NCBI GenBank assembly: GCA_022843385.1
Contig: JALHNT010000033.1
Coordinates: forward strand, 1-64,000
DNA length: 64,000 nucleotides
Direction of reading: 5' to 3'
Source: Anaerolineae bacterium
Lineage (GTDB): Bacteria; Chloroflexota; Anaerolineae; Aggregatilineales; Phototrophicaceae
The notes below the pieces were generated by a model. The model saw only the letters and a program-made list of their open reading frames with translations, was not told the DNA's origin and did no database searches. This document shows, piece after piece, positions 28,863 to 40,102 of the stretch. The position numbers and the translations under genes are program-made. The stretch's first letter is position 1. The number at the start of each line of letters is the position of its first letter.

Positions 28863-28891
28863 TTGACAGAACAGATATTCTGTACTATGAT
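28863..28891 (+). promoter_or_regulatory. Near-consensus sigma-70 promoter at the head of repeat copy A
   Basis: TTGACA (28863-28868), a 17-base spacer, then TATGAT (28886-28891). The -35 and spacer hold a dyad ACAGAA-N6-TTCTGT (28866-28883). Sequence similarity to copy B begins exactly at this -35 hexamer. Confidence 0.75.
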
Positions 28892-29415
28892 GATGCTATG
28901 CGATTTCGTTCCTGGTTTTCCCCTTCATTTGCTCAACCCCAACCTTTATTCTCCTTACGTCATCACCCAGCGACTGGCTCTCGTGTTCCCGCCGTTATGT
29001 CCAATTCGGATGTGCAGCGGCGGTTCGCTCCCGTCCTGATGCTGCACAGGGCGACAACAGCCGAGCTTCAGCGTTGGCATTTTTCGCAACAATGCGCCAA
29101 CTTCCCGTCCAGCCGCCTGAATAGTTGGCGACAAATGTGCAAAAACTTCAAAACACTGAATCAACCATCCGCAAGGATAATCATCTCGATTGATCATGCG
29201 CCTTTCCGGTTTTCACTTTTTACTTTTCACTCAGCACTTTCAACCACGTCCCGGCGGTCAACTGCTCCCGTGATCCGCCGCCGAAAACTTGGATCCGCTG
29301 GCGGCACGTGGCTCGCCTGGTGTCGCCATGATGTGCGCTGGCCTCCCGCGTTCTCGCTGCCACATGGCGATGCCGATCCGCCATTCTCCCGTACTATCGC
29401 CATCCAATCTGGCGG
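28863..29415 (+). repeat. Copy A of a 0.55-kb promoter-led repeat, candidate structured RNA or leader
   Basis: This 553-base unit is about 77% identical, by my hand alignment, to the unit at 39541-40102 on the other strand, with one net nine-base length difference. Similarity starts at the promoter and stops at the terminal hairpin. Hairpins seen in both copies: CGCA-N4-TGCG flanked by TTGG/CCAA (29074-29100), CCGCC/GGCGG (29275-29304) and CGCCA-N7-TGGCG (29398-29414). Differences between copies are not concentrated in any codon column (about 48, 40 and 35), which argues against a protein, although a 178-codon frame from 28898 is open. It ends 89 bases before the ATG at 29504, in the same direction, so it could be that gene's promoter and leader. 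Confidence 0.7.
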
Positions 29416-29503
29416 AACGTTCAACTGGCAATAACAGGTTTCCTGATCCGATGAAGGGGTATAATCCGCTGGATTCGCGGAATGCTCAACTGAAGGAATA
29501 GCA

Positions 29504-30493
29504 ATGATGACTCAGCGAATTCTGGTGACCGGCGCAACTGGAAAAGTTGGTCAGGCATTCATCCGGCGCTTCTGGACTGAAAATCAGTTTGCGGATTGGG
29601 AGATGCGGGTGATCTGTCACAACCGGGTGCTCGAACCCCATGACCGCCTGGAAGTGGTTAGGGGATCGCTTGCGGATCGTGCGATTGTCGAGCAGGCGAT
29701 GAGTGGTGTCACACACGTTCTTCATCTGGCGACCCCTAAAGAAACACCGGATGCCATCATGGATGTGGCGATCAAGGGCTTGTTCTGGTTGCTGGAATCC
29801 TGCCGCGTCAGCCGCGACTTCAAACAGTTCATCCTGATCGGTGGTGATGCTGGCATGGGGCATTGTGTCTATCCTCATCCGATACCCGTGACGGAAACTC
29901 AGAAGCACAGCGCTTATCCAGGTTGTTATGCGCTCTCCAAAGTCCTCGAAGAAGTGATGCTGGAACAGTACTACATTCAATACGACTTGAATGGTTGCTG
30001 CCTGCGCGCTCCCTGGATTATGGAAAAGGATGATTTCAAATATCAATTGTCCTTTGGTGAAGATGTGTTTGGCGGCCCGCGCTGGCGAGATCGGGTTGGG
30101 ACAGCAAAAGCTGACGACTACATGCAGGCGCAAACGGTACCGATCATGCTTGACCCCCAGGGCAAACCGGTCAAGCGCAACTTTGTGCATGTTGAGGATC
30201 TGGTCGCGGCAATTCTGAAAGCGCTGGACTGTCCTGCTGCACGACAACAGACGTTCAACATCTGCATGGATGAACCCGTTGATTACGGCGAACTGGCGCA
30301 CTACCTGGCGCAGTCGCGGCGACTCCCTTCCGTAGAAGTAGTGACCGAGTTTCATTCAACCTGGTTGGATAACACGAAGGCGAAGTTCCTGCTGGGTTGG
30401 CGTCCAGAGTATGATCTCCGGCGCATGACCGATGCAGCCTTTGATCATCAGCGGGGAATAGATGATCCGCGCATCATCTGGTATCCGGGTTAG
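29504..30493 (+). CDS. NAD-dependent epimerase/dehydratase family protein
   Basis: A 329-residue extended SDR protein. The cofactor motif GATGKVGQAF is at residues 9-18. The catalytic Tyr-Lys pair is probably in YALSKVLEE near residue 146, and THVLHLAT and VHVEDLVAAIL are the usual downstream landmarks. It is a relative of sugar-nucleotide epimerases and uronate dehydrogenases, but I cannot choose a substrate. GAAGGA lies seven bases upstream of the ATG. It follows repeat copy A, which would supply its promoter. TyrRS starts 56 bases downstream on the same strand. Confidence 0.85.
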   Translation: MMTQRILVTGATGKVGQAFIRRFWTENQFADWEMRVICHNRVLEPHDRLEVVRGSLADRAIVEQAMSGVTHVLHLATPKETPDAIMDVAIKGLFWLLESCRVSRDFKQFILIGGDAGMGHCVYPHPIPVTETQKHSAYPGCYALSKVLEEVMLEQYYIQYDLNGCCLRAPWIMEKDDFKYQLSFGEDVFGGPRWRDRVGTAKADDYMQAQTVPIMLDPQGKPVKRNFVHVEDLVAAILKALDCPAARQQTFNICMDEPVDYGELAHYLAQSRRLPSVEVVTEFHSTWLDNTKAKFLLGWRPEYDLRRMTDAAFDHQRGIDDPRIIWYPG

Positions 30494-30549
30494 CAGGAAT
30501 GCTATACTGGTAACGCTTTGTGAACCCTTATGAACAGGATAAATGAGCG

Positions 30550-31788
30550 ATGCCGACCATTGATGAGCAAGTTGATGTTTTAATGTCGGGCGCCGAATAT
30601 GGTGACCCGCAGACCAAAGAAACCATGCGCCGCGAACTCCGCGAGCGCTTAATCGAAGCGGAGAAAGCTGGCCGCCCGCTGCGCGTCTACTGCGGTTACG
30701 ATCCGCGCACGGCTGACCTGCATCTTGGACATACCATCACCATGCGGAAGCTGCGCCAGTTCCAGGAACTCGGCCATGACGTGACCTTCCTGATCGGCAG
30801 CTTCACCAGCCTGATCGGTGACCCGTCTGATAAGGACAAAGCCCGCGATCAACTGACTCGTGAGCAGGTGCAGGAGAATGCCCGTACCTACAGTGAGCAG
30901 GCATTCAAGATTCTGGATCGCGACCTCACCCGTGTGCGGTTCAATGATGAATGGTTGGCGACGCTCGACTTCGCTGACATCATCCGACTTGCCAGCAACT
31001 TCACCGTGCAGCAGTTCCTGGTACGTGAGAATTTCAAAAAGCGGTTGGATGCGGGTGAAGCGATCTACCTGCACGAGCTGTTCTATGGTTTGATGCAGGG
31101 GTACGACGCCGTCGCTCAGGAAACCGATGTCCAGGTCGGCGGTCAGGATCAACTGTTCAATATTCTGGTGGCTGGTCGTAAATTACAGGAAGCGCTCGGT
31201 CAGCGCCCGCAAGTGGCGATCATCATGGGTGAAAGCCTGCCGGGTACCGATGGCGAGATCAAGATGAGCAAGAGCCTGGGCAACCATATCCCAATTCTGG
31301 CTGAACCCTGGGATATGTTCGGCAAGGTGATGAGTGTGCCGGATAAAGCGATGGCGATCTACCACAAGCTGATTCTGGGCTGGTCGCCGGCGCAATTGAA
31401 GGAACTGGAGGATGGGCTGGCATCCGGCAAGCTACATCCGAACGAGGTAAAAATGAATCTGGCGCGGGAGATTGTAGGCATCTTCCACAGCCCTGATGAC
31501 GCTCAGGCGGCGCAGAAACGCTGGGACGAGGTCTTTCGCAGTCACGGCGGTCTGCCGGAAGATATGCCGGAGGAGGTCATCGCTGTGGCTGAGAAGGTCG
31601 TTGATATTCTACGACGGCTGGAGATGGTCAAGAGTGGCAGCGAGGCCAAGCGCCTGATGGAGCAGAATGGCGTGCGGCTGAACGAAAAACCGGTCACCGA
31701 TCCGATGACGACCGTCACCCTCGACATGCTGCCGGCTGTGCTTCAGGTCGGCAAACGCAAGTTCGTGAAGCTGGTGGCACAGGCCTAG
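30550..31788 (+). CDS. tyrS: Tyrosyl-tRNA synthetase
   Basis: A 412-residue class I synthetase that charges tRNA-Tyr. The HIGH motif appears as HLGHT near residue 58, and KMSKS appears in EIKMSKSLGNH near 237. VQVGGQDQLFN is the expected tyrosine/ATP-site landmark. The C-terminal 65 residues form an S4-type RNA-binding domain (EAKRLMEQNGVRLNEKPV). The relatively long insert and motif wording fit the TyrRS group typified by the YxxK-less TyrZ-like or type 2 forms. No T-box leader is present in the short upstream gap. Confidence 0.96.
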   Translation: MPTIDEQVDVLMSGAEYGDPQTKETMRRELRERLIEAEKAGRPLRVYCGYDPRTADLHLGHTITMRKLRQFQELGHDVTFLIGSFTSLIGDPSDKDKARDQLTREQVQENARTYSEQAFKILDRDLTRVRFNDEWLATLDFADIIRLASNFTVQQFLVRENFKKRLDAGEAIYLHELFYGLMQGYDAVAQETDVQVGGQDQLFNILVAGRKLQEALGQRPQVAIIMGESLPGTDGEIKMSKSLGNHIPILAEPWDMFGKVMSVPDKAMAIYHKLILGWSPAQLKELEDGLASGKLHPNEVKMNLAREIVGIFHSPDDAQAAQKRWDEVFRSHGGLPEDMPEEVIAVAEKVVDILRRLEMVKSGSEAKRLMEQNGVRLNEKPVTDPMTTVTLDMLPAVLQVGKRKFVKLVAQA

Positions 31789-31805
31789 CGCTTGATAAAC
31801 GGCGA

Positions 31806-31832
31806 AAGAGGGACGGAAACTTGTCCCTCTTC
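31806..31832. terminator. Terminator hairpin between convergent tyrS and tauE-like genes
   Basis: AAGAGGGAC (31806-31814) and GTCCCTCTT (31823-31831) form a perfect nine-pair stem with an eight-base loop. The T-run is short on both sides, so it may serve either direction with modest strength. Confidence 0.6.
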
Positions 31833-31833
31833 A

Positions 31834-32595
31834 TCAGGCAGGCGTATAGAACAGGGAAAATACGCCCAAAATGAACAGCATCACCAGCATAAACTGTTCA
31901 AACTTGCGCGGATTGATGTGCTTGACAAAACGTTTGCCAAACCAGGCTCCCAGCGGGATGAGCGGCAGCGCCCACAGGATGCTGGCAAGGGTGTGCAGGC
32001 TGAGGACATTGTTGCTGGATAGGGTGAACGGCAGCTTCATGATGTTCACCAACGCGAAGAATAACGACGTGGTTCCCAGAAAGCTGACCGGCTCGATTCC
32101 TTGCAGGATCATGTAGGTGGTGTAGGGCGGTGCGCCAACATTCGCCAGCGCTGAGCCGAAACCGGCTGCCCACCCAGCCAATCGTCCATGCCAGTCACGA
32201 TGTTCATATTTGAGGGAGTTGAAGCGCGAGCTGAGTACCTTGTAAAACACCACCAGCAGCGTGAACCCGCCCAGGATGCGCCGGAGCAGCACATCCTGAT
32301 GACTGTTCGCCAGGCTGACCAGCAGGATTCCGCCCATCACCACGCCGATGACCGACATCGGCAGCAGCAGCCGGAGACGGTTGGTTTCCCACTTGCCCCA
32401 GTAGAAACGCAGCGCTATCAGGTCGCCCAGAAGCAGGGGGATCAGCACAATGCCGACGGCCTGCGACGCGGGCATAATCAGGCTCATCAACGGCGTGAGC
32501 ATGGCAACTGGAACTGGCCCGCCCAGGCCGCCTTTGGATAATCCAATGAACAGACAGGCCAGGGCAACCACGATATAGAATTGAGCTTCAGGCAT
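31834..32595 (-). CDS. TauE/SafE family membrane transporter
   Basis: A 253-residue protein with about eight hydrophobic segments and the TauE/SafE halves: LSKGGLGGPVPVAMLTPLMSL near the N-terminus and GFGSALANVGAPPYTTYML in the second half. Members export sulfite, sulfoacetate or other organosulfur anions, but most are uncharacterised. Length is normal. A terminator at 32604-32632 ends the upstream gene just before it, so it needs its own promoter in a gap of only a few bases beyond that hairpin. No sulfur-metabolism gene is near. Confidence 0.88.
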   Translation of the reverse strand: MPEAQFYIVVALACLFIGLSKGGLGGPVPVAMLTPLMSLIMPASQAVGIVLIPLLLGDLIALRFYWGKWETNRLRLLLPMSVIGVVMGGILLVSLANSHQDVLLRRILGGFTLLVVFYKVLSSRFNSLKYEHRDWHGRLAGWAAGFGSALANVGAPPYTTYMILQGIEPVSFLGTTSLFFALVNIMKLPFTLSSNNVLSLHTLASILWALPLIPLGAWFGKRFVKHINPRKFEQFMLVMLFILGVFSLFYTPA

Positions 32596-32603
32596 GATGT
32601 ACT

Positions 32604-32632
32604 CACAAAAAAGCGCACGACTGGGTGCGCTT
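32604..32632 (-). terminator. Intrinsic terminator after the cyclic-nucleotide-binding gene
   Basis: AAGCGCAC (32611-32618) and GTGCGCTT (32625-32632) form a perfect eight-pair stem with a six-base loop. On the minus strand the stem is followed by TTTTTT-type sequence (32605-32612). It is 40 bases past the stop at 32673. Confidence 0.88.
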
Positions 32633-32672
32633 GAGACTCAGATGAATGGTTGTGAAGCCGATCAGTACGGTG

Positions 32673-33164
32673 TTACTTGTTGGGCGACCAGGTCAGCACT
32701 TCCCGCACCTGGAGGTCGGTATGGCGAATCTTCATCGCCAGATCGGCTGCCAGGTTGCGCATCAGCTTGTATCCCAACTGCGGGTAGGTATCGCAGAGCA
32801 GCATCAACTTTTGCCGGGGGATGATAATCAACCGGGTGTCATCAGCCGCACAACGGGCCGCCGCCGAGCGCAGTCCTTCATCCACCAGCGTCACTTCACC
32901 GAATGATTGTCCACGTCGCAGCGTCGCAATGGTGAACGCTCCGCCGCTTTCTTCTTTCTTGCCGACGATGGAAGGATTGACCTGAATGGCGATTTCACCC
33001 TCAGCGATGACGTAGAGCTCAGTGCCGGGGGTATTTTCTTCAAAGATCAGTTCGCCAGATTGAAATTTCTTTTCCGCGCAGATGGAGGCGACCAGCTCAA
33101 GCTGCGTAGTGGTCAGTTCATAGAATATATCGGCTTGCTTCAACACTGTGATGAAAGTGGACAT
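32673..33164 (-). CDS. Cyclic-nucleotide-binding domain protein without a DNA-binding domain
   Basis: A 163-residue protein that is nearly all one CRP-type cNMP-binding domain. GELIFEENTPGTELYVIAEG is the beta-roll start, and GQSFGEVTLVDEGLRSAAARC is the phosphate-binding cassette (GE ... R.A). There is no helix-turn-helix after it, so it is not a CRP-type activator as it stands; it may be a stand-alone sensor. I start at 33164 with GGAG about ten bases upstream; an ATG at 33197 is in frame. It is divergent from the rtcB gene. Confidence 0.82.
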   Translation of the reverse strand: MSTFITVLKQADIFYELTTTQLELVASICAEKKFQSGELIFEENTPGTELYVIAEGEIAIQVNPSIVGKKEESGGAFTIATLRRGQSFGEVTLVDEGLRSAAARCAADDTRLIIIPRQKLMLLCDTYPQLGYKLMRNLAADLAMKIRHTDLQVREVLTWSPNK

Positions 33165-33294
33165 CCGGCTGCGCTCCTCAAAGCGGGCAGAGTTCATGTA
33201 ACAGGATGAGCAGATTGTATCATGGTTGTGAGTTGCGGCAAAGCAAGAACTCTTAAGGTATGCTCGACGATCCGGAACTGTAACAGAATTATCC

Positions 33295-33337
33295 TTGTGT
33301 AAACTGTTGTGACCCTTTATGATCTTATTGTAAGATC
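33295..33337 (+). promoter_or_regulatory. rtcB promoter with overlapping palindrome
   Basis: TTGTGT (33295-33300), a 17-base spacer and TATGAT (33318-33323). A perfect inverted repeat GATCTTA-TTG-TAAGATC (33321-33337) covers the end of the -10 and the expected transcription start. It is a good operator candidate. Confidence 0.55.
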
Positions 33338-33357
33338 TTATGGGTGAGGGTATGCAG

Positions 33358-34593
33358 ATGAACGAGTACAACACTGAAATCCGGCAGTCTCCGCTGCCCT
33401 ATGCCATCTGGGGCGAAGCCTATATCGACGCCGAGTCGCGGAAACAGATGGATGCGGCCATGCGCTTACCGATCTCGGTAGCTGGAGCCTTGATGCCGGA
33501 TGCTCATGTCGGCTATGGTCTGCCGATTGGTGGCGTGTTGGCGACAGAGAACGCCGTCATCCCCTATGCAGTCGGCGTTGATATCGCCTGCCGAGTGCGG
33601 CTGTCGATCTTTGAAGTGTCACCGATTGTGGTCAAGCAAAAGGTGGGTCAGTTCAGGAATGCTCTGGTTGAAAATACCTTGTTCGGCGCAGGGCGTGCCT
33701 GGAACAGCGGCCACCTTGCCGAACATGAGATGCTGGATGACCCAGTATGGGATGAGGTGAAGTTCCTGAAATCGTTACAAAATCTTGCCAGCGAACAGCT
33801 TGGAACCAGCGGATCGGGCAACCACTTCGTCGAGTGGGGATCCTTCAGCCTCGCGAAGGACAGTGCGCAGTTGAATCTGAAAGCTGGTGATTATCTGGCG
33901 CTGCTCTCGCACAGCGGCTCACGTGGGGTGGGATTCAAAATCGCCAACCATTATTCTGAACTGGCGCAGAAGATGCATCCCAATCTCGATAAAGGTGTGC
34001 GTCAGCTGGCCTGGCTGCCGTTATCCTGGCATGAGGGGCAAGAATACTGGCTGGCTATGGAGCTGGCTGGTCGATTCGCAGCCGCAAATCATGAGATCAT
34101 TCACAAACGGGTTGCCAAAGCCGCCGGGCTGAAGCCAGTTTTCAGCGTTGAAAATCATCATAATTTTGCTTGGAGAGAGACTCTGCCCTCACCAACCGGC
34201 TTCTCGGACCCACAACGAACCGTCATCGTTCATCGCAAGGGCGCTACCCCGGCTGGCAAGGGCGTTCTGGGAGTGATACCCGGTTCAATGGCCGACGCTG
34301 GTTTTCTGGTGCGGGGTAAGGGCGAACCGGCGTCGCTCAATTCTGCATCTCACGGGGCAGGGCGTGCGATGAGTCGACGCAAGGCTGTGGATTCCATCAC
34401 CAAGACCGAACGGGATCGCTATCTGAAAGAGCGTGGCGTAATCCTGCTGGGTGGTGGCCTGGATGAGGCACCGCAAGCCTATAAGAATGTCGACGAAGTA
34501 GTCGGTGCGCAGTCTGATCTGGTGGATGTGATTGGGAGATTTATGCCGATTATGGTTCAGATGGATGGCAGTGGAAGCAAACCAGAGGATTAG
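33358..34593 (+). CDS. rtcB: RtcB-family RNA ligase
   Basis: A 411-residue protein of the RtcB family, which joins 2',3'-cyclic phosphate and 5'-OH RNA ends with GTP and manganese. Metal and catalytic residues are visible: the Asp-Cys pair in GVDIACRV near residue 79, and histidines in GSGNHFVE, SHSGSRG and ENHHNFAW. The guanylylated histidine is probably the one in SASHGAGRAMSR near residue 330. The ATG at 33358 is preferred because GAGGG lies seven bases upstream; 33340 and 33352 are also in frame. No RtcA or archease gene is adjacent; the next gene, two bases on, is a CoA-transferase subunit. Confidence 0.93.
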   Translation: MNEYNTEIRQSPLPYAIWGEAYIDAESRKQMDAAMRLPISVAGALMPDAHVGYGLPIGGVLATENAVIPYAVGVDIACRVRLSIFEVSPIVVKQKVGQFRNALVENTLFGAGRAWNSGHLAEHEMLDDPVWDEVKFLKSLQNLASEQLGTSGSGNHFVEWGSFSLAKDSAQLNLKAGDYLALLSHSGSRGVGFKIANHYSELAQKMHPNLDKGVRQLAWLPLSWHEGQEYWLAMELAGRFAAANHEIIHKRVAKAAGLKPVFSVENHHNFAWRETLPSPTGFSDPQRTVIVHRKGATPAGKGVLGVIPGSMADAGFLVRGKGEPASLNSASHGAGRAMSRRKAVDSITKTERDRYLKERGVILLGGGLDEAPQAYKNVDEVVGAQSDLVDVIGRFMPIMVQMDGSGSKPED

Positions 34594-34595
34594 CC

Positions 34596-35411
34596 GTGTC
34601 CGATTTCACGATAGATGAACTCATTTGCGTCTGTATCTCACGACAGGTCGAGGATGGCGAGCTGCTCGCCCAGGGAATCAACACACCGTTGGTAATGGCC
34701 GGTTTCATCCTGGCGAAATGTACACACGCCCCTCACGTCAAATTCACCTCTGCTATCGGCCAAAGTCTTGTCGAAGAATGGTCTCCGCTGGGGGTAGGGC
34801 GTGTTGAGGAGATGTGGCTTTCGAAGTCGCAGATGCACTTCGGCTTTGTGGCTGGCGCAGTAGAACTGCTGCCCGCATACGAGTTGAAGGAGTTCTTCCG
34901 TCCGGCGCAGGTTGATCCATTCGGTAACTTCAACAACGTCGCCATCGGGAGTGATTACGCGCGGCCTCGTATGCGACTGCCGGGAACCGGGGGTATCCCG
35001 GATGTGACGACCTTTTCCAACCAGGTCTATTTGTATGTACCGCGCCATTCACGGGTGACGTTCGTTGAGAAAGTGGACTTTGTGAGCGGCCTGGGGCATT
35101 CGCCTGAACGTGAGCGCGGTACCGGTCCGCGCTATCTGGTGAGTGATCTGGGGCAATTTGACTGGGCTGAAGGACGGATGCGCCTCATCAGCTATCATCC
35201 CGGTGTGACGGTTGAGCAGATACAGAAGAAGACGGGCTTCGCGCTGACGGTTGCGCCGGATCTAATTGAGACATTGGTGCCAACTGCTGAGGAACTGCGA
35301 CTGCTCCGGGAAGCAATTGATCCGCTCAATGTCCGAAAGCTCGAAATGCTCGGCGGCAGCGCTCGTAAAGACCTGCTACATGATATTCTGACGCGAGAAG
35401 GCGCTTTATGA
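34596..35411 (+). CDS. CoA-transferase family I, beta subunit-like, orphan
   Basis: A 271-residue protein resembling the beta subunit of glutaconate- and 3-oxoacid-type CoA-transferases (GctB/IpdB-like). Segments such as ELLAQGINTPLVMAGFILAK, VDPFGNFNNVAIG and SDLGQFDWAEGRMRLISYHPGVTVEQI are typical. The alpha subunit normally lies directly upstream, but here that place is taken by rtcB, and nothing similar is in the window. The start is GTG with GAGGAT five bases upstream. It is co-transcribed with rtcB. Either the alpha gene is elsewhere, or this beta-like protein works alone in an unknown reaction. Confidence 0.8.
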   Translation: MSDFTIDELICVCISRQVEDGELLAQGINTPLVMAGFILAKCTHAPHVKFTSAIGQSLVEEWSPLGVGRVEEMWLSKSQMHFGFVAGAVELLPAYELKEFFRPAQVDPFGNFNNVAIGSDYARPRMRLPGTGGIPDVTTFSNQVYLYVPRHSRVTFVEKVDFVSGLGHSPERERGTGPRYLVSDLGQFDWAEGRMRLISYHPGVTVEQIQKKTGFALTVAPDLIETLVPTAEELRLLREAIDPLNVRKLEMLGGSARKDLLHDILTREGAL

Positions 35412-35439
35412 GAATTGTCAGACTGACACCGAATTTGGG

Positions 35440-36606
35440 TTAATTGCGATTCAGGCGCGGATCGAGCGCGTCACGCAGACCATCGCCGAGCAGGTTGAAG
35501 CCTAACACGGTCAGCATGATGGCGAAGCCAGGGAAAAACACCAGATGAGGCGCTGTGAAGACATAGTTGCGTCCCTCACTGAGCATCTGTCCCCATTCAG
35601 CCGTTGGCGGTTGTGCGCCCAGTCCGATGAAGGAAAGCGCAGCCGCTTCGATGACAGCCGTGCCAATGCCGAGCGTTCCCTGGACAATCAATGGAGTCAG
35701 GGTGTTTGGCAGGATCTGTGAGAACAGAATGCGGCCGTGAGGTGCGCCGAGGGCGCGTTCAGCCGTCACGAACTCCAGTTCCTTGACCGAGAGGACGCTG
35801 GCGCGCACCAGCCGAGCATAGACCGGAATCGAGACGATAGCGATGGCAAGCAGCGCATTTTCCAGCCCCGGCCCCTGAATGGTGACGATAGTGATGGCAA
35901 GCAAGAGTGAGGGAAAGGCCAGCAGTACATCCATCAGGCGCATGATGATGTTATCGACCAGACCGCCCGCGTAGCCTGAGACCAGTCCCAACAAAGTGCC
36001 GATCAGGATGGCGAAGGTCACGCTGGCGATACCTACACGCAGCGAGGTTTGCGCCCCAAAGACGATACGGCTGAACAGGTCACGGGCATTCAAATCCAGC
36101 CCCAAAAAATGCTGCGGTTCGGTGCAGCCAAACAGCGTGATACACGGTGGTTTGGAGGGCAACCGTCCGGTTTCGCCGGGCTGCCCGATCATGGTTAAGG
36201 TTGGGTCGTGGGTGGCGATGACCGGGGCAAAGTCACCGACGACGAACATCAACCCGATGACGACCATACCAATGACAGCGGAGCGATTACGGAAGAGGTT
36301 ATTGAGCGTCTCCAGTGTGATGCTGGCTTCTTCGGTGCGCTGCGCCCAGATGACGAAGATGATGCCCAATGGCAAGGCTATGGCGTAGTTTAGATTATTG
36401 ATGAGCCGCACGAATTCGTAAAGCGCCCCCAGTATCCCGCCGTCTGGTTGTAACAACCCCAGCAGTGACACGAGGCCGATGACCAGCCCGCGAATGAGAA
36501 GGGTGACGAATAAAGCAATTGCAACCGAACGGTGCAGCGGCAGTTGGCGCACTGCCAGCGGGCGATGGTCTTCGCGCAGTGTTGTTATGGTTCCAGCCCG
36601 TTGCAT
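35440..36606 (-). CDS. Dipeptide/oligopeptide ABC transporter permease (DppC-like)
   Basis: A 388-residue inner-membrane permease. After a long N-terminal region with two hydrophobic stretches (residues 28-80), it follows the DppC/OppC pattern: a cytoplasmic segment RNRSAVIGMVVIGLM and then six helices. The EAA loop is ERALGAPHGRILFSQILPNTL near residue 285, which docks to an ABC ATPase. The N-terminus is about 90 residues longer than in typical DppC. It is the last gene of a binding protein-permease-permease operon; the two ATPase genes are not in the window. Confidence 0.92.
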   Translation of the reverse strand: MQRAGTITTLREDHRPLAVRQLPLHRSVAIALFVTLLIRGLVIGLVSLLGLLQPDGGILGALYEFVRLINNLNYAIALPLGIIFVIWAQRTEEASITLETLNNLFRNRSAVIGMVVIGLMFVVGDFAPVIATHDPTLTMIGQPGETGRLPSKPPCITLFGCTEPQHFLGLDLNARDLFSRIVFGAQTSLRVGIASVTFAILIGTLLGLVSGYAGGLVDNIIMRLMDVLLAFPSLLLAITIVTIQGPGLENALLAIAIVSIPVYARLVRASVLSVKELEFVTAERALGAPHGRILFSQILPNTLTPLIVQGTLGIGTAVIEAAALSFIGLGAQPPTAEWGQMLSEGRNYVFTAPHLVFFPGFAIMLTVLGFNLLGDGLRDALDPRLNRN

Positions 36607-36614
36607 AGTCTGCC

Positions 36615-37691
36615 CTAATCCAAACGGATGCGCGGGTCAAGATACCCGTAAAGCACATCCACCAGCAAGTTAATAACGACAAAAGCGACGGCGGTCACTA
36701 AGGTGACGCCCTGTACCAACGAGTAATCACGAGCCGTGATGCCCTCAAACAAGGTGCGACCCACGCCGGCAAATCCGAATATGGTCTCGGTCAGCACCGC
36801 GCCAGAAATCAGACCACCGAAGTTCAGGCCGATGATGGTGACGACCGGCAGCAAGGCGTTCCTGACAGCATGGCGAACGACGACGCGGTACTCTGATAAG
36901 CCTTTAGCACGCGCTGTTCGCACATAGTCCTGCCCCAGGATTTCCAGCACGCTGGAACGGGTCATGCGAGCGATGATCGCCAGGGGGATCGTGCCAACGG
37001 TGATCGATGGCAGGATCAGGTGTTGAACTGCATCGACAAACTGTTGACCGTTGAGGGTCAGAAAGGCATTCAGCAGATTGATGCGCGACAGAAAGATCAT
37101 CAGGCCAGACGCATTATCCGCATCAGCTACCAGTCCCCAACTGATATAGAAGGGCAGGTAACTTGCGCCAGCCGTCAATCGTCCTGATGGAGGCAATGCG
37201 AATGGAGTGTCCTTAAGGATAACTGCAAACAGGAAGGCCAACATCAGTCCCAACCAGAATACCGGCATCGAGACACCGACGTTGGCACCGATCATGGTTC
37301 CAACATCAATTGGTGAATTGTAACGGTAGGCTGAGATGACACCCAGCGGGATACCAACCACAATCGCGAACACCAAGGCTGTAACCGCCAGCTCAAACGT
37401 CACCGGCAGTCGTTCGACCAGCAACTCGGTGACCGGGCGACCGAAGCGCAGCGAATCACCAAGATCTCCGCGAACGACATTCGCGACATAATAGCCAAAT
37501 TGAACTGGAATCGGCTGATCCAATCCGTAGCGGGCGATGAAGGCGTCGCAAACCGCTTCGGTCGCTTTTTCGCCGAACATGGCGCGGCAGGGATCACCTG
37601 GTATAGAACGCCCCAGAATAAAGGTGACGGCCAGGATGCCAATCAGCACCGGCACTGCCAGGATCAGTCGTCTCAAGATAAAAGTGGACAT
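36615..37691 (-). CDS. Dipeptide/oligopeptide ABC transporter permease (DppB-like)
   Basis: A 358-residue permease. It opens with FILRRLILAVPVLIGILAVTFIL, the typical DppB N-terminus, followed by the family's GDPCRAM and GLDQPIPVQFGYYV segments. The EAA-type loop is ARAKGLSEYRVVVRHAVRNALLP near residue 250. Six transmembrane helices are expected. It sits eight bases before the DppC-like gene and 72 bases after the binding-protein gene, with an attenuator hairpin in that gap. Confidence 0.93.
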   Translation of the reverse strand: MSTFILRRLILAVPVLIGILAVTFILGRSIPGDPCRAMFGEKATEAVCDAFIARYGLDQPIPVQFGYYVANVVRGDLGDSLRFGRPVTELLVERLPVTFELAVTALVFAIVVGIPLGVISAYRYNSPIDVGTMIGANVGVSMPVFWLGLMLAFLFAVILKDTPFALPPSGRLTAGASYLPFYISWGLVADADNASGLMIFLSRINLLNAFLTLNGQQFVDAVQHLILPSITVGTIPLAIIARMTRSSVLEILGQDYVRTARAKGLSEYRVVVRHAVRNALLPVVTIIGLNFGGLISGAVLTETIFGFAGVGRTLFEGITARDYSLVQGVTLVTAVAFVVINLLVDVLYGYLDPRIRLD

Positions 37692-37710
37692 AAGCGATTC
37701 TGTTCAAAAA

Positions 37711-37740
37711 CTGAAGGGCGGGTATCAGCACCCGCCCTCG
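37711..37740 (-). terminator. Hairpin between binding-protein and permease genes (attenuator)
   Basis: AGGGCGGG (37715-37722) and CCCGCCCT (37731-37738) form an eight-pair stem with an eight-base loop, followed on the minus strand by TTCAGTTTTTG. It would let the binding protein be made in excess over the permeases. Confidence 0.8.
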
Positions 37741-37763
37741 CAATCACGATCGATGAACCTGGA

Positions 37764-39413
37764 CTATTGCGGTGCGTTCAGGAAGGCACCGAACAGCGCA
37801 CTGAAATAGGTGAAGGAACCAGTGCGCCCCTTGTGCAGCGGGCTGGCGGCGTCCCACATCATTTCCCAGGTGGTGACGACATCGGTTGAGTCGAAGGTTG
37901 AGCCATCGCTGAACTGTACGCCTTCGCGCAGCGTGAACGTCCATTCAGTCGCATCGGCATTGGGCGTCCATTCGACGGCCAGCGCCGGAACCACTGCCCC
38001 GCCGCCCAGCTCATAACCGAGCAGCGAGTCGGTCATCTGCTCGCAGGCACGGAAGGTCTCGCCATCTTCTTCGTCGTTGCAGAACAGGCTGATCGGTTCA
38101 GCGCCCTGCATGAAGATGATGTTATCGTCATCGGGGTCTTCCATGACGCGGAATTGTTCGCCAGCAAACAGACCGGCATAAGCACCGGTGACGCGAGCGG
38201 TGAAGGCTACCGCGCTCGTGCCGTGCGCCACAGGAACCATCGGGACGAAACGAGCAATTTCGTTATTGGCCTGGGTGTAGATTGCCAGACGCTCTGCCGG
38301 GTCGCCGATCTGGGCGGCCTGACCGAGTAGATCGGTAATGACCGGGTCCTTGTCACCAAACTGTGGGCTGGCACCAGCGCCGAAATGGAAGTCGAGGAAG
38401 TTGGTGGCATCCGGGTAGTCCGCGCCCCAGCCGAGCAGATGGAGCGAGAGTTCGCCGGCTGTCGCAGCATCGAGGAATGAACCGGATTCCATCTGATTGA
38501 TGGTGACATTGATGCCGATGGCGGCGAGCTGCGCCTGCAAGTCCTGGGCGACGATGCCCGGCTGCGGCAGATAGACACGGACGACATCACGATAGCTCAG
38601 GGTGGTTTCAATCGGCAGGGTGAACCCCTCTTCAGCCGCGGCCTCGGCCAACAACTGTTTCGCCATCTCGGGATCGTAGGGGATCACGGTCGAGTCAGGC
38701 GTGTAGCCGAAGATGGTCGGGGGCATGAACTGAGTGGCAGCCGCTGAACCGACCGGATAGAAGTTGTCGATGATGCGCTGCTTGTCGATGCCATAGGCCA
38801 GCGCCTGGCGCACCTTGACACTGTTGAAGGGCGCAACGGTGTTGTTGATGCCGAGGTAGAAAATGTTGTTCAGGCTGCGCGGATACAGACGGGCATCCGG
38901 ATTACCTTCGATCGCGGCGAAGTCGGCAGGGCCAACGTTGTCAAAACCATCAATGGTGCCAGCCTGGAGTTCGGTCCAGCGAGCAGCCGCTTCCGAATTC
39001 CAGCGCAGGATGACGGTCGGCTCAATTGGCGCTTCACCCCAGTAATTCTCGTTGACGGTGAACACCATCTCATTGCCTTTATCCCAGCTTTGCAGCTTGT
39101 AGGGGCCGGTTGAGGGCGGGTTCTCGATATAGTTCTGCCAGTCCTCGTCAGTTTGGAGGGCGCGCAGAGCTTCATCGGAATGGATGGCATAGGTTGAGAG
39201 GGCGATCTTGGCTGGTAGACCCGGATCGGCGAAGCACAGGGTGAACTTCACGGTCAGGGCGTCAACCGCTTCCACCGATTTGAATTCACCACCGTAATCA
39301 CAACTGGGCGCTTCGATCTTGGGGAGGCTTTGGGCGGCCACCGGGGCGACCATGATTCCAAGAATCATAGCAACCAGGGCAGCCATGGGCAGCCATCGAG
39401 ATATGGACTTCAT
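37764..39413 (-). CDS. Dipeptide/oligopeptide ABC transporter substrate-binding protein
   Basis: A 549-residue exported protein of the family-5 binding proteins. The start at 39413 gives a clean signal peptide (MKSISRWLPMAALVAMILGI) with AAGGAG five to six bases upstream; an open frame 38 codons longer is not supported. Family landmarks: LSTYAIHSDEALRAL, TGPYKLQSWDKGNEMVFTVNENYWG, and VRQALAYGIDKQRIIDNFYP. The N-terminal domain that usually precedes the first landmark is short here, and near residues 488-535 the order WTPNADATEWTFTLREGVQFSDGSTF appears at the C-terminal side. This suggests a circularly permuted or rearranged arrangement compared with ordinary DppA. Repeat copy B lies just upstream and would carry its promoter. 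Confidence 0.82.
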   Translation of the reverse strand: MKSISRWLPMAALVAMILGIMVAPVAAQSLPKIEAPSCDYGGEFKSVEAVDALTVKFTLCFADPGLPAKIALSTYAIHSDEALRALQTDEDWQNYIENPPSTGPYKLQSWDKGNEMVFTVNENYWGEAPIEPTVILRWNSEAAARWTELQAGTIDGFDNVGPADFAAIEGNPDARLYPRSLNNIFYLGINNTVAPFNSVKVRQALAYGIDKQRIIDNFYPVGSAAATQFMPPTIFGYTPDSTVIPYDPEMAKQLLAEAAAEEGFTLPIETTLSYRDVVRVYLPQPGIVAQDLQAQLAAIGINVTINQMESGSFLDAATAGELSLHLLGWGADYPDATNFLDFHFGAGASPQFGDKDPVITDLLGQAAQIGDPAERLAIYTQANNEIARFVPMVPVAHGTSAVAFTARVTGAYAGLFAGEQFRVMEDPDDDNIIFMQGAEPISLFCNDEEDGETFRACEQMTDSLLGYELGGGAVVPALAVEWTPNADATEWTFTLREGVQFSDGSTFDSTDVVTTWEMMWDAASPLHKGRTGSFTYFSALFGAFLNAPQ

Positions 39414-39540
39414 ATATTGCTCCTTGAAAAAAGTGAATCCCCCGTAACTGCTGGTCAAGTTGACCTGTACCGCACCAGCAGTCAACTCATCAAGGATTAA
39501 TCTAACACATTCACGCTCGCTTGCCAACCATCGCCCTCAT

Positions 39541-40102
39541 CCGCCGATAAACGCGGCGACAACACGGGAAGATGGCGGATAGGTTCCGCCAGATGCCGGC
39601 GAATGCACGAGAGATCGGCGCAGTGGACAGCGATTGTACGAGAGCCAGACGCCGCCAGCGGATCGAAGTTTTTGGTGGCGGATCACGGGAGAAGTTGACC
39701 GCCAGGACGTAGTCGGAAGTGCTGAGTGCAACGTGAAAGGTGAAGACGGGAAAGATGCATGACGAACATAATCAATCGAGATGATGATCTGTGCAGACAG
39801 TTGATTCAGGGATTTGAAGTTTTTGCATAGTTGTCGCTGAATGTTCAGGCGACTGGACGGGAGCTTGGCGCAAAATTGCGAAAAATGCCAATGCTCAAGC
39901 TCGGCTGTTGTCACCATGTGCAGCATCTCGACGGCAGCGATCCGCCGCTGCACATACGAATTGCCCATAACGGCGAGAGCGCGAGAGCCAGCCGCCGGAT
40001 GATAACTTATGTGGGATTGAGGTGCAGGTTGGGTCAGGGGAAGCGTAGAACAAGACACAAAATTCATGCCATCAGTATAAGATAGAATTCTTGTTCTGTC
40101 AA
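39541..40102 (-). repeat. Copy B of the 0.55-kb promoter-led repeat, candidate structured RNA or leader
   Basis: The 562-base partner of the unit at 28863-29415, in inverted orientation. It runs from a sigma-70-like promoter (40102-40074) to a terminal hairpin CGCCG-N7-CGGCG (39542-39558). The internal hairpin is CGCA-N4-TGCG (39869-39880) flanked by TTGG/CCAA; its loop differs completely from copy A while the stem is unchanged. The terminal stem has G-C where copy A has A-T. Sequence upstream of the promoter shows no similarity to copy A. It ends 128 bases before the start of the peptide-binding protein, in the same direction. One frame of about 175 codons from the aligned ATG at 40067 is open, but codon-column statistics do not support it. 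Confidence 0.7.
40074..40102 (-). promoter_or_regulatory. Near-consensus sigma-70 promoter at the head of repeat copy B
   Basis: On the minus strand TTGACA (40102-40097), a 17-base spacer and TATACT (40079-40074). The spacer keeps the AGAA-N6-TTCT dyad seen in copy A. Confidence 0.75.

Follow-up and report, generated by a model that had tools for sequence, protein, structure and literature searches.

The window analysed here, a stretch of 64,000 nucleotides (nt) from an Anaerolineae bacterium (assembly GCA_022843385.1, contig JALHNT010000033.1; genome of 7.85 Mb in 117 contigs, 95.7% complete), contains two similar units, 28863-29434 on the forward strand (unit 1) and 39555-40102 on the reverse strand (unit 2). 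These units are probably two copies of a small interspersed repeat, both modular and lineage-specific, of the kind represented by BOX elements or miniature inverted-repeat transposable elements (MITEs), which carries a LexA-type promoter and a leaderless leader frame whose own sequence appears to be free to vary. This interpretation is built on what was seen in the sequences: the number of copies in the genome, their common anatomy, the likeness of their operator to the boxes of lexA genes, the empty sites that correspond to unit 1 in related genomes, a leader devoid of stop codons and the absence of a codon signature.

The pair had been noticed in an earlier, sequence-only reading of the window, and its description of the two units was partly confirmed. 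Their similarity is real, at 76% identity across the first 539 bases of the 572-base query, and extends from the -35 hexamer onward, TTGACA being the left end of both, while no clear similarity was found when their upstream flanks were compared. The promoter is also present as claimed, TTGACA-N17-TATGAT in unit 1 and with TATACT as the -10 hexamer in unit 2. The same reading had called the repeat two-copy, which is wrong, since the genome contains at least 24 copies, every one of them starting with the same type of promoter. A search of the whole genome with unit 1 returned 46 matches at E <= 0.01, which break down into 24 distinct copies, three promoter fragments belonging to those same copies, 17 heptamer-like matches (33-36 bases, at query 348-382 only) and two matches at query 393-424; 24 is a lower bound because 40 of 124 candidates were scored. 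According to a mechanical map of open reading frames (ORFs), the copies are intergenic and lie between the flanking ORFs, small overlaps at the element ends aside.

The alignment of the 24 copies shows that they are built alike, with TTGACA, a spacer containing the AGAACAnnTATTCT operator, the -10 hexamer, an ATG, a 66-nt leader, dyad modules of the type GCGG...CCGC and a TGCAAA-rich tail. The -35 hexamer is TTTACA in two copies and TTGACA in the remainder, and the ATG is found in all 24, at offset 35 in 21 copies, 36 in two and 38 in one. The shared core is about 300 nt long and closes at TGAATCAA, with further modules beyond it in part of the copies. The earlier reading had let the repeat end at a terminal hairpin; the window units are long versions, which go on beyond the shared core. 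Mean column entropy is lowest at the ATG (0.17 bit), followed by the promoter (0.52), modules M2-M4 (0.64), the tail (0.70) and the first module, M1 (0.74), and is highest in the leader (1.49), where the median pairwise identity is 35%. The low values of promoter and ATG against the high value of the leader indicate that promoter and start codon were kept while the leader diverged almost freely.

Allowing up to three mismatches, the promoter pattern occurs 18 times in the genome, always within family copies (18/18), and never in the reversed control; six of the 24 copies deviate by more than three mismatches. The AGAAYNNNNRTTCT operator is found at 35 genome sites versus five in the reversed control, 22 of these sites being in family copies and 13 outside. 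In the seven genomes inspected (own, G001, G003, G004, G010, G014 and G015), the lexA gene is preceded by CGAAC-N4-GTTC inside an apparent promoter, and a second box, AGAACAATCATTCG, which is identical before lexA in all seven, is close to the operator of the element. The operator overlaps the core promoter and resembles the lexA boxes of the host itself, as would be expected in a LexA regulon. Judged by this likeness between the candidate operator and the lexA boxes, the promoter of the repeat looks LexA-controlled. Among the seven of 13 non-family operator sites that were examined, one precedes a gene for a UvrB interaction domain and one a gene of the DinB superfamily.

Some further observations concern the same regulatory sequences. 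Another of the seven examined non-family sites lies on contig C65 of G000 (L051, 199-589), where a 73-amino-acid protein consisting of the LexA DNA-binding domain only (PF01726) is encoded behind a TTGACA promoter with AGAATACTTGTTCT; this promoter closely resembles that of the family, and no array was seen between it and the gene. At L005 (G000:C10:13826-14288) and L064, a family copy stands directly before a UvrB gene that has its own GAAC-N4-GTTC box. Finally, LexA-like paralogues of G014 (L203, L208) are preceded by AGAACTCTTGTGCTA, which by eye is like the GAACTTTTGTGCTA variant of some element promoters in other genomes of the genus, a resemblance that possibly reflects a second class of repressor.

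The second distinctive feature of the family is the frame that opens at the conserved ATG. Over the 22 codons that follow it, the 24 copies contain no stop in the ATG frame (0/528) versus 19/504 and 7/504 in the other frames. Shuffled leaders had 15 stops on average and reached zero in none of 2000 trials; similarly, a tree-based simulation of the copies, repeated 4000 times for each of three rates, gave about 15 stops and never zero. Further downstream (codons 33-84), the ATG frame has 11 stops versus 24 and 18 in the others. The frame measures at least 33 codons in every copy, with a median of about 88, and reaches 120-181 codons in nine of the 24, both window units included. These properties, a conserved start codon, a stop-free leader and long frames in nine copies, would also suit rapidly evolving small SOS-induced proteins or toxins made from leaderless mRNAs, of which the modules would be mere coding repeats. 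In the same vein, the array frame is free of stops in 10 of the 13 copies in which it is in frame with the ATG and in two of the 11 others. However, the peptide itself does not seem to be under selection. The leader, whose family mean is 10% G and 37% C, has nearly the same base composition at the three codon positions. No third-position excess was detected, as claimed earlier: for the three codon positions, column entropies are 0.657/0.603/0.680 (from offset 150 in the 24 copies) and differences 0.418/0.398/0.418 (nine long copies). The sequence-only reading held that a ratio of nonsynonymous to synonymous substitution rates (dN/dS) well below 1 would speak against it; pairwise values were 0.57-1.30 over 36 pairs of the nine long copies, the alignment being poor in the second half. 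Besides, the array is entered in one frame by 13 of the 24 copies and in others by 11, and visual inspection shows two reading frames in use across the 3' modules. No protein family was found for the ORFs of the units, which had no match in Pfam or PHROG and a single chance-level match in NCBIfam (frame of unit 1; E 0.08, 12 bits versus a cut-off of 650). We thus regard a small-protein family as unlikely. The simplest reading seems to be that translation of the leader is selected and its peptide is not, so that the earlier verdict of a non-coding repeat holds for the amino-acid sequence and overlooks the stop-free frame behind a conserved leaderless ATG.

Evidence for mobility comes from the locus of unit 1, which is flanked by alaS and an epimerase gene. 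The latter was found in 11 other genomes, and in four of them (G004, G010, G011 and G015) alaS adjoins it within the fetched stretch; promoter and array are absent from all four. The gap between alaS and the epimerase gene, measured from where the match ends to where the gene starts, is 146-256 bases in these congeners versus about 1 kb here. In the remaining genomes with the epimerase gene, alaS is not adjacent within the fetched stretch, or the match is broken (G003). With four empty sites, a gain in the present lineage is a simpler explanation than a loss in four lineages. Together with the 24 dispersed copies and their conserved promoter, this makes the mobile promoter the best of three identities proposed by the sequence-only reading. 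Another of them, a leader, corresponds to a cis-acting sequence that regulates the downstream gene. This would agree with the co-directional gene that was correctly described after both window units, an epimerase gene and a solute-binding protein gene, respectively. As a general rule, though, the arrangement fails, because the mechanical ORF map gives a co-directional downstream gene for only 14 of the 24 copies, whereas the other 10 face a gene on the opposite strand. Moreover, the two targets in the window have different functions and the other targets are diverse by eye. A cis-regulatory leader is consequently very improbable.

Two other origins were considered and rejected. For a REP/RAYT origin, an idea prompted by locus L093, where an array seen by eye directly follows the C-terminal end of a RAYT-transposase-like gene, the genome has no short Y1_Tnp gene, and a simple pattern disclosed no family-type array adjacent to any of 19 Y1_Tnp loci, at which scattered single pattern matches do occur. 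As for a phage or plasmid origin, unit 1 had no blastn match in phages or plasmids, and two patterns had no exact match in viral contigs.

Within what has been searched so far, the family appears to be confined to one genus of Chloroflexota. A DNA search gave matches in five of 61 genomes, the own genome included, all of the same genus. With a covariance model (E <= 0.001), copies were recovered from the own genome and six congeners, seven of 17 in the genus, and none from the other 10 of the 16 congeners; the counts, which rest on at most 150 scored candidates per genome, were 23 in the own genome, at least 150 in G003, 112 in G010, 112 in G015, 109 in G004, seven in G001 and four in G014. 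In a class sample of 199 genomes, filters that were stricter and recovered 16 own copies retained the own genome only (0/198 others). The exact tail pattern was present in 16 stretches from four metagenome-assembled genomes (MAGs) of an 84,980-species collection, namely MGR_bin408, RI_313, ANAER1 and one labelled Bacteroidetes. A search of named genomes, from which own or near-own records were possibly left out, gave no exact match to the promoter pattern of the own copies. The record 'Bacteroidetes bacterium ... MAG9' (L272 and L274; JAPUDW010000278.1 and JAPUDW010000041.1) carries the family, is listed as a congener (G010) and is probably mislabelled.

A sample of 80 copies from four congeners, picked among the best matches, allowed the promoter to be sought beyond the own genome. 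In 40 of them, a -10 hexamer preceded by a LexA-type half site was found within at most 420 nt upstream (less at contig ends), with 16/25 copies in G003, 12/24 in G004, 8/17 in G010 and 4/14 in G015. The same pattern was encountered in 0/80 for each of three controls (other strand; downstream, both strands). In a stricter form, GA[A/T][C/T]-N4-GT[T/G]C abutting the -10 hexamer, it was found in 23/80 copies versus none in the controls. Frames of 80-170 codons were seen in some of these 40 copies with a promoter, whereas in many others the frame is short or lacks a start codon. By eye, six congener loci (L227, L229, L245, L248, L258 and L260) also share a recurrent second stretch, approximately AGTTTGnAAACTCGAACC, upstream of the -35 hexamer.

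The modules stand out better in congener arrays than in those of the own genome, as GCGG-loop-CCGC with, for instance, CTCCCTC, ACGGGAG or AGCCGAG as the loop, and some arrays comprise more modules. The CTCCCGT motif that recurs in conserved modules, the nearly invariant GCGG/CCGC arms and a promoter in each of the 24 own copies could be expected from an SOS-controlled family of long structured non-coding RNAs, i.e. genes for multi-hairpin small RNAs whose repeated CUCCCGU loops would sequester a protein or ribosome-binding sites. Covariation, folding energy and Rfam lend no support to the long structured RNA that the sequence-only reading had put forward. For 30 column pairs tested in the 80 congener copies, the fraction paired was no more than 0.04 above what columns varying independently would give, in a test to which the arms contribute little information and power because they are nearly invariant. 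Folding z-scores are weak in the 24 own copies (mean of -1.0 for the stretch between start and tail and -1.3 for the array) and hardly differ between the strands in 40 congener copies (mean of -2.1 sense and -2.2 antisense); this symmetry suggests DNA dyads rather than a selected RNA fold. In addition, the loop motifs occur in either orientation at one and the same module position in congener arrays. Rfam yielded no match at the gathering score in the window, and the nine matches at six loci were at chance level (E 0.9 or worse), all below the gathering score. A structured RNA family is therefore quite unlikely. Two specific folds were also discarded: a long hairpin predicted by RNAalifold, since the module pairs do not covary in congeners and z-scores are weak, and kissing loops between CTCCCGT and ACGGGAG, since the orientation of the loops varies from copy to copy.

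If the window units are copies of a mobile repeat with a LexA-type promoter, each copy of the own genome would be a miniature transcription unit with a sigma-70-type promoter and an operator in its spacer. Given the position of the predicted operator, the promoter should stay silent until the SOS response, LexA binding to it and repressing it. Upon DNA damage, SOS induction would allow transcription to start at the ATG, and ribosomes would load on this leaderless start and translate 33 codons or more. C-rich, G-poor RNA is a good loading site for Rho. As the leader would otherwise offer such a site, its translation would keep Rho off and let transcription pass, so that the transcript may run through the array and sometimes into the next gene. 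Some activity would have moved the repeat in the past, and the array may be the part recognized during mobilization, or a module that affects polarity or stability. A broader proposal, which we advance tentatively and hold to be possible rather than probable, is that these mobile repeats sow LexA-controlled promoters over the genome and thereby make transcription SOS-inducible at unrelated loci, with a leader selected for being translated rather than for its peptide and with ribosome passage, as opposed to Rho action or decay, as its function. Were the promoters functional, two dozen or more scattered starts would be turned on together by DNA damage, and the repeat could in this way rewire a regulon. 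A leader that is stop-free and otherwise unconstrained would also provide a natural example in which translation as such is selected.

Several points weigh against the interpretation as a mobile, LexA-controlled repeat. Concerning mobility, the neighbours of unit 2 are not syntenic in the fetched loci, and the alignment of the empty sites gives no base-exact ends. By eye, the ends share only TTGA (TTGACA on the left, TGAATCAA on the right), and no target duplication is definable. No transposase is tied to the family, Y1_Tnp alone having been tested, with a single match here inside an 863-amino-acid frame. Concerning the promoter, the operators of L011 and L013 depart from the exact palindrome, and four of the seven non-family operator sites examined have no clear promoter context. 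The congener sample is non-random, its promoter pattern was composed after inspection of the sequences, a comparable promoter was not seen in the other 40 of the 80 copies, and the leaderless ATG with an open frame is inconsistent among congener copies. Concerning the leader, strict clustering to 10 representatives weakens the frame result (0/220, 9/210 and 1/210; p about 0.015), and the role attributed to Rho is a guess from base composition alone.

The features of the two units are compiled below. The heptamer-like TTTCACT/TTTTACT repeat that is included for unit 1 is also found inside other long copies and is dispersed alone at 17 other places in the genome.

Features of the two repeat units in the window (positions of the 64,000-nt stretch; M, module)
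Feature	Position	Strand	Remarks
Unit 1 promoter	28863..28891	+	-35 TTGACA 28863-28868, 17-bp spacer, -10 TATGAT 28886-28891
Unit 1 LexA-type operator AGAACAGATATTCT (candidate)	28868..28881	+	between -35 and -10; resembles the lexA promoter boxes CGAAC-N4-GTTC and AGAACAATCATTCG
Unit 1 conserved ATG	28898..28900	+	near the expected transcription start; putative leaderless start codon
Unit 1 open frame, 178 codons from ATG	28898..29434	+	
Unit 1 G-poor, C-rich leader	28901..28966	+	ATG frame free of stops; poorly conserved sequence
Unit 1 dyad-module array	28968..29117	+	M1 28968-28993, M2 29012-29047, M3 from 29050, M4 29101-29117
Unit 1 tail, TGCAAA-rich, ending CTGAATCAA	29118..29164	+	closes the 302-nt core common to the copies on the right
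Unit 1 heptamer-like TTTCACT/TTTTACT stretch	29210..29245	+	independent dispersed repeat of this genome
Unit 1 3' extension, further dyad modules	29253..29434	+	first module 29253-29279; found in part of the copies
Unit 2 promoter	40074..40102	-	-35 40102-40097, candidate operator AGAACAAGAATTCT 40097-40084, -10 TATACT 40079-40074
Unit 2 ATG, putatively leaderless	40065..40067	-	
Unit 2 open frame, 176 codons from ATG	39537..40067	-	
Unit 2 core, promoter to TGAATCAA	39801..40102	-	alignment, DNA search
Unit 2 3' extension, further modules	39541..39800	-	

Among the titles of the literature searched, we recognized none on LexA-controlled dispersed repeats. Putative mobile promoters, by which a promoter is spread through dispersal, have reportedly been described in prokaryotes; compared with these, the present family carries a regulated promoter of the SOS type together with an array and a leader frame. 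In LexA/SOS promoters with GAAC-N4-GTTC boxes, as far as that account is considered here, the operator lies close to the RNA polymerase site or overlaps it, as in the repeat, and the box is of the type that precedes lexA in the genomes inspected here, the difference being that here the promoter belongs to a dispersed element (PMC3323433). With REP/REPIN-RAYT systems, the family has palindromic modules and a high copy number in common, going by the parts of the reports drawn upon (PMC3116915, PMC3733652), whereas its units are 300-570 nt long with a promoter, and its genome (117 contigs, 95.7% complete) yielded no short Y1_Tnp gene. The enterobacterial RU-1, RU-2 and RU-3 are, in the portion of their description used here, likewise small mobile repeats present in many intergenic regions with open frames; unlike theirs, the peptide of the present family is not conserved (PMC2759123).

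By description, the closest kind is the BOX element of Streptococcus pneumoniae, which is also modular, many-copy and lineage-restricted, with open frames in its long copies (PMC3049150). In the part of that description considered here, one genome contains 125 elements made from 422 modules in variable number, which are lineage-specific and thought to be parasitic, and copies over 500 bp contain ORFs, some of them shown to be transcribed (PMC3049150). BOX elements possess terminal inverted repeats and target duplications, neither of which was seen in the present family (PMC3049150). Conversely, the LexA-type promoter and the leaderless ATG inside the repeat are features of the present family that find no mention for BOX in the same part of the source (PMC3049150). 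A promoter of the LexA type within the repeat and a leader frame free of sequence constraint would thus distinguish this family from BOX as described there (PMC3049150).

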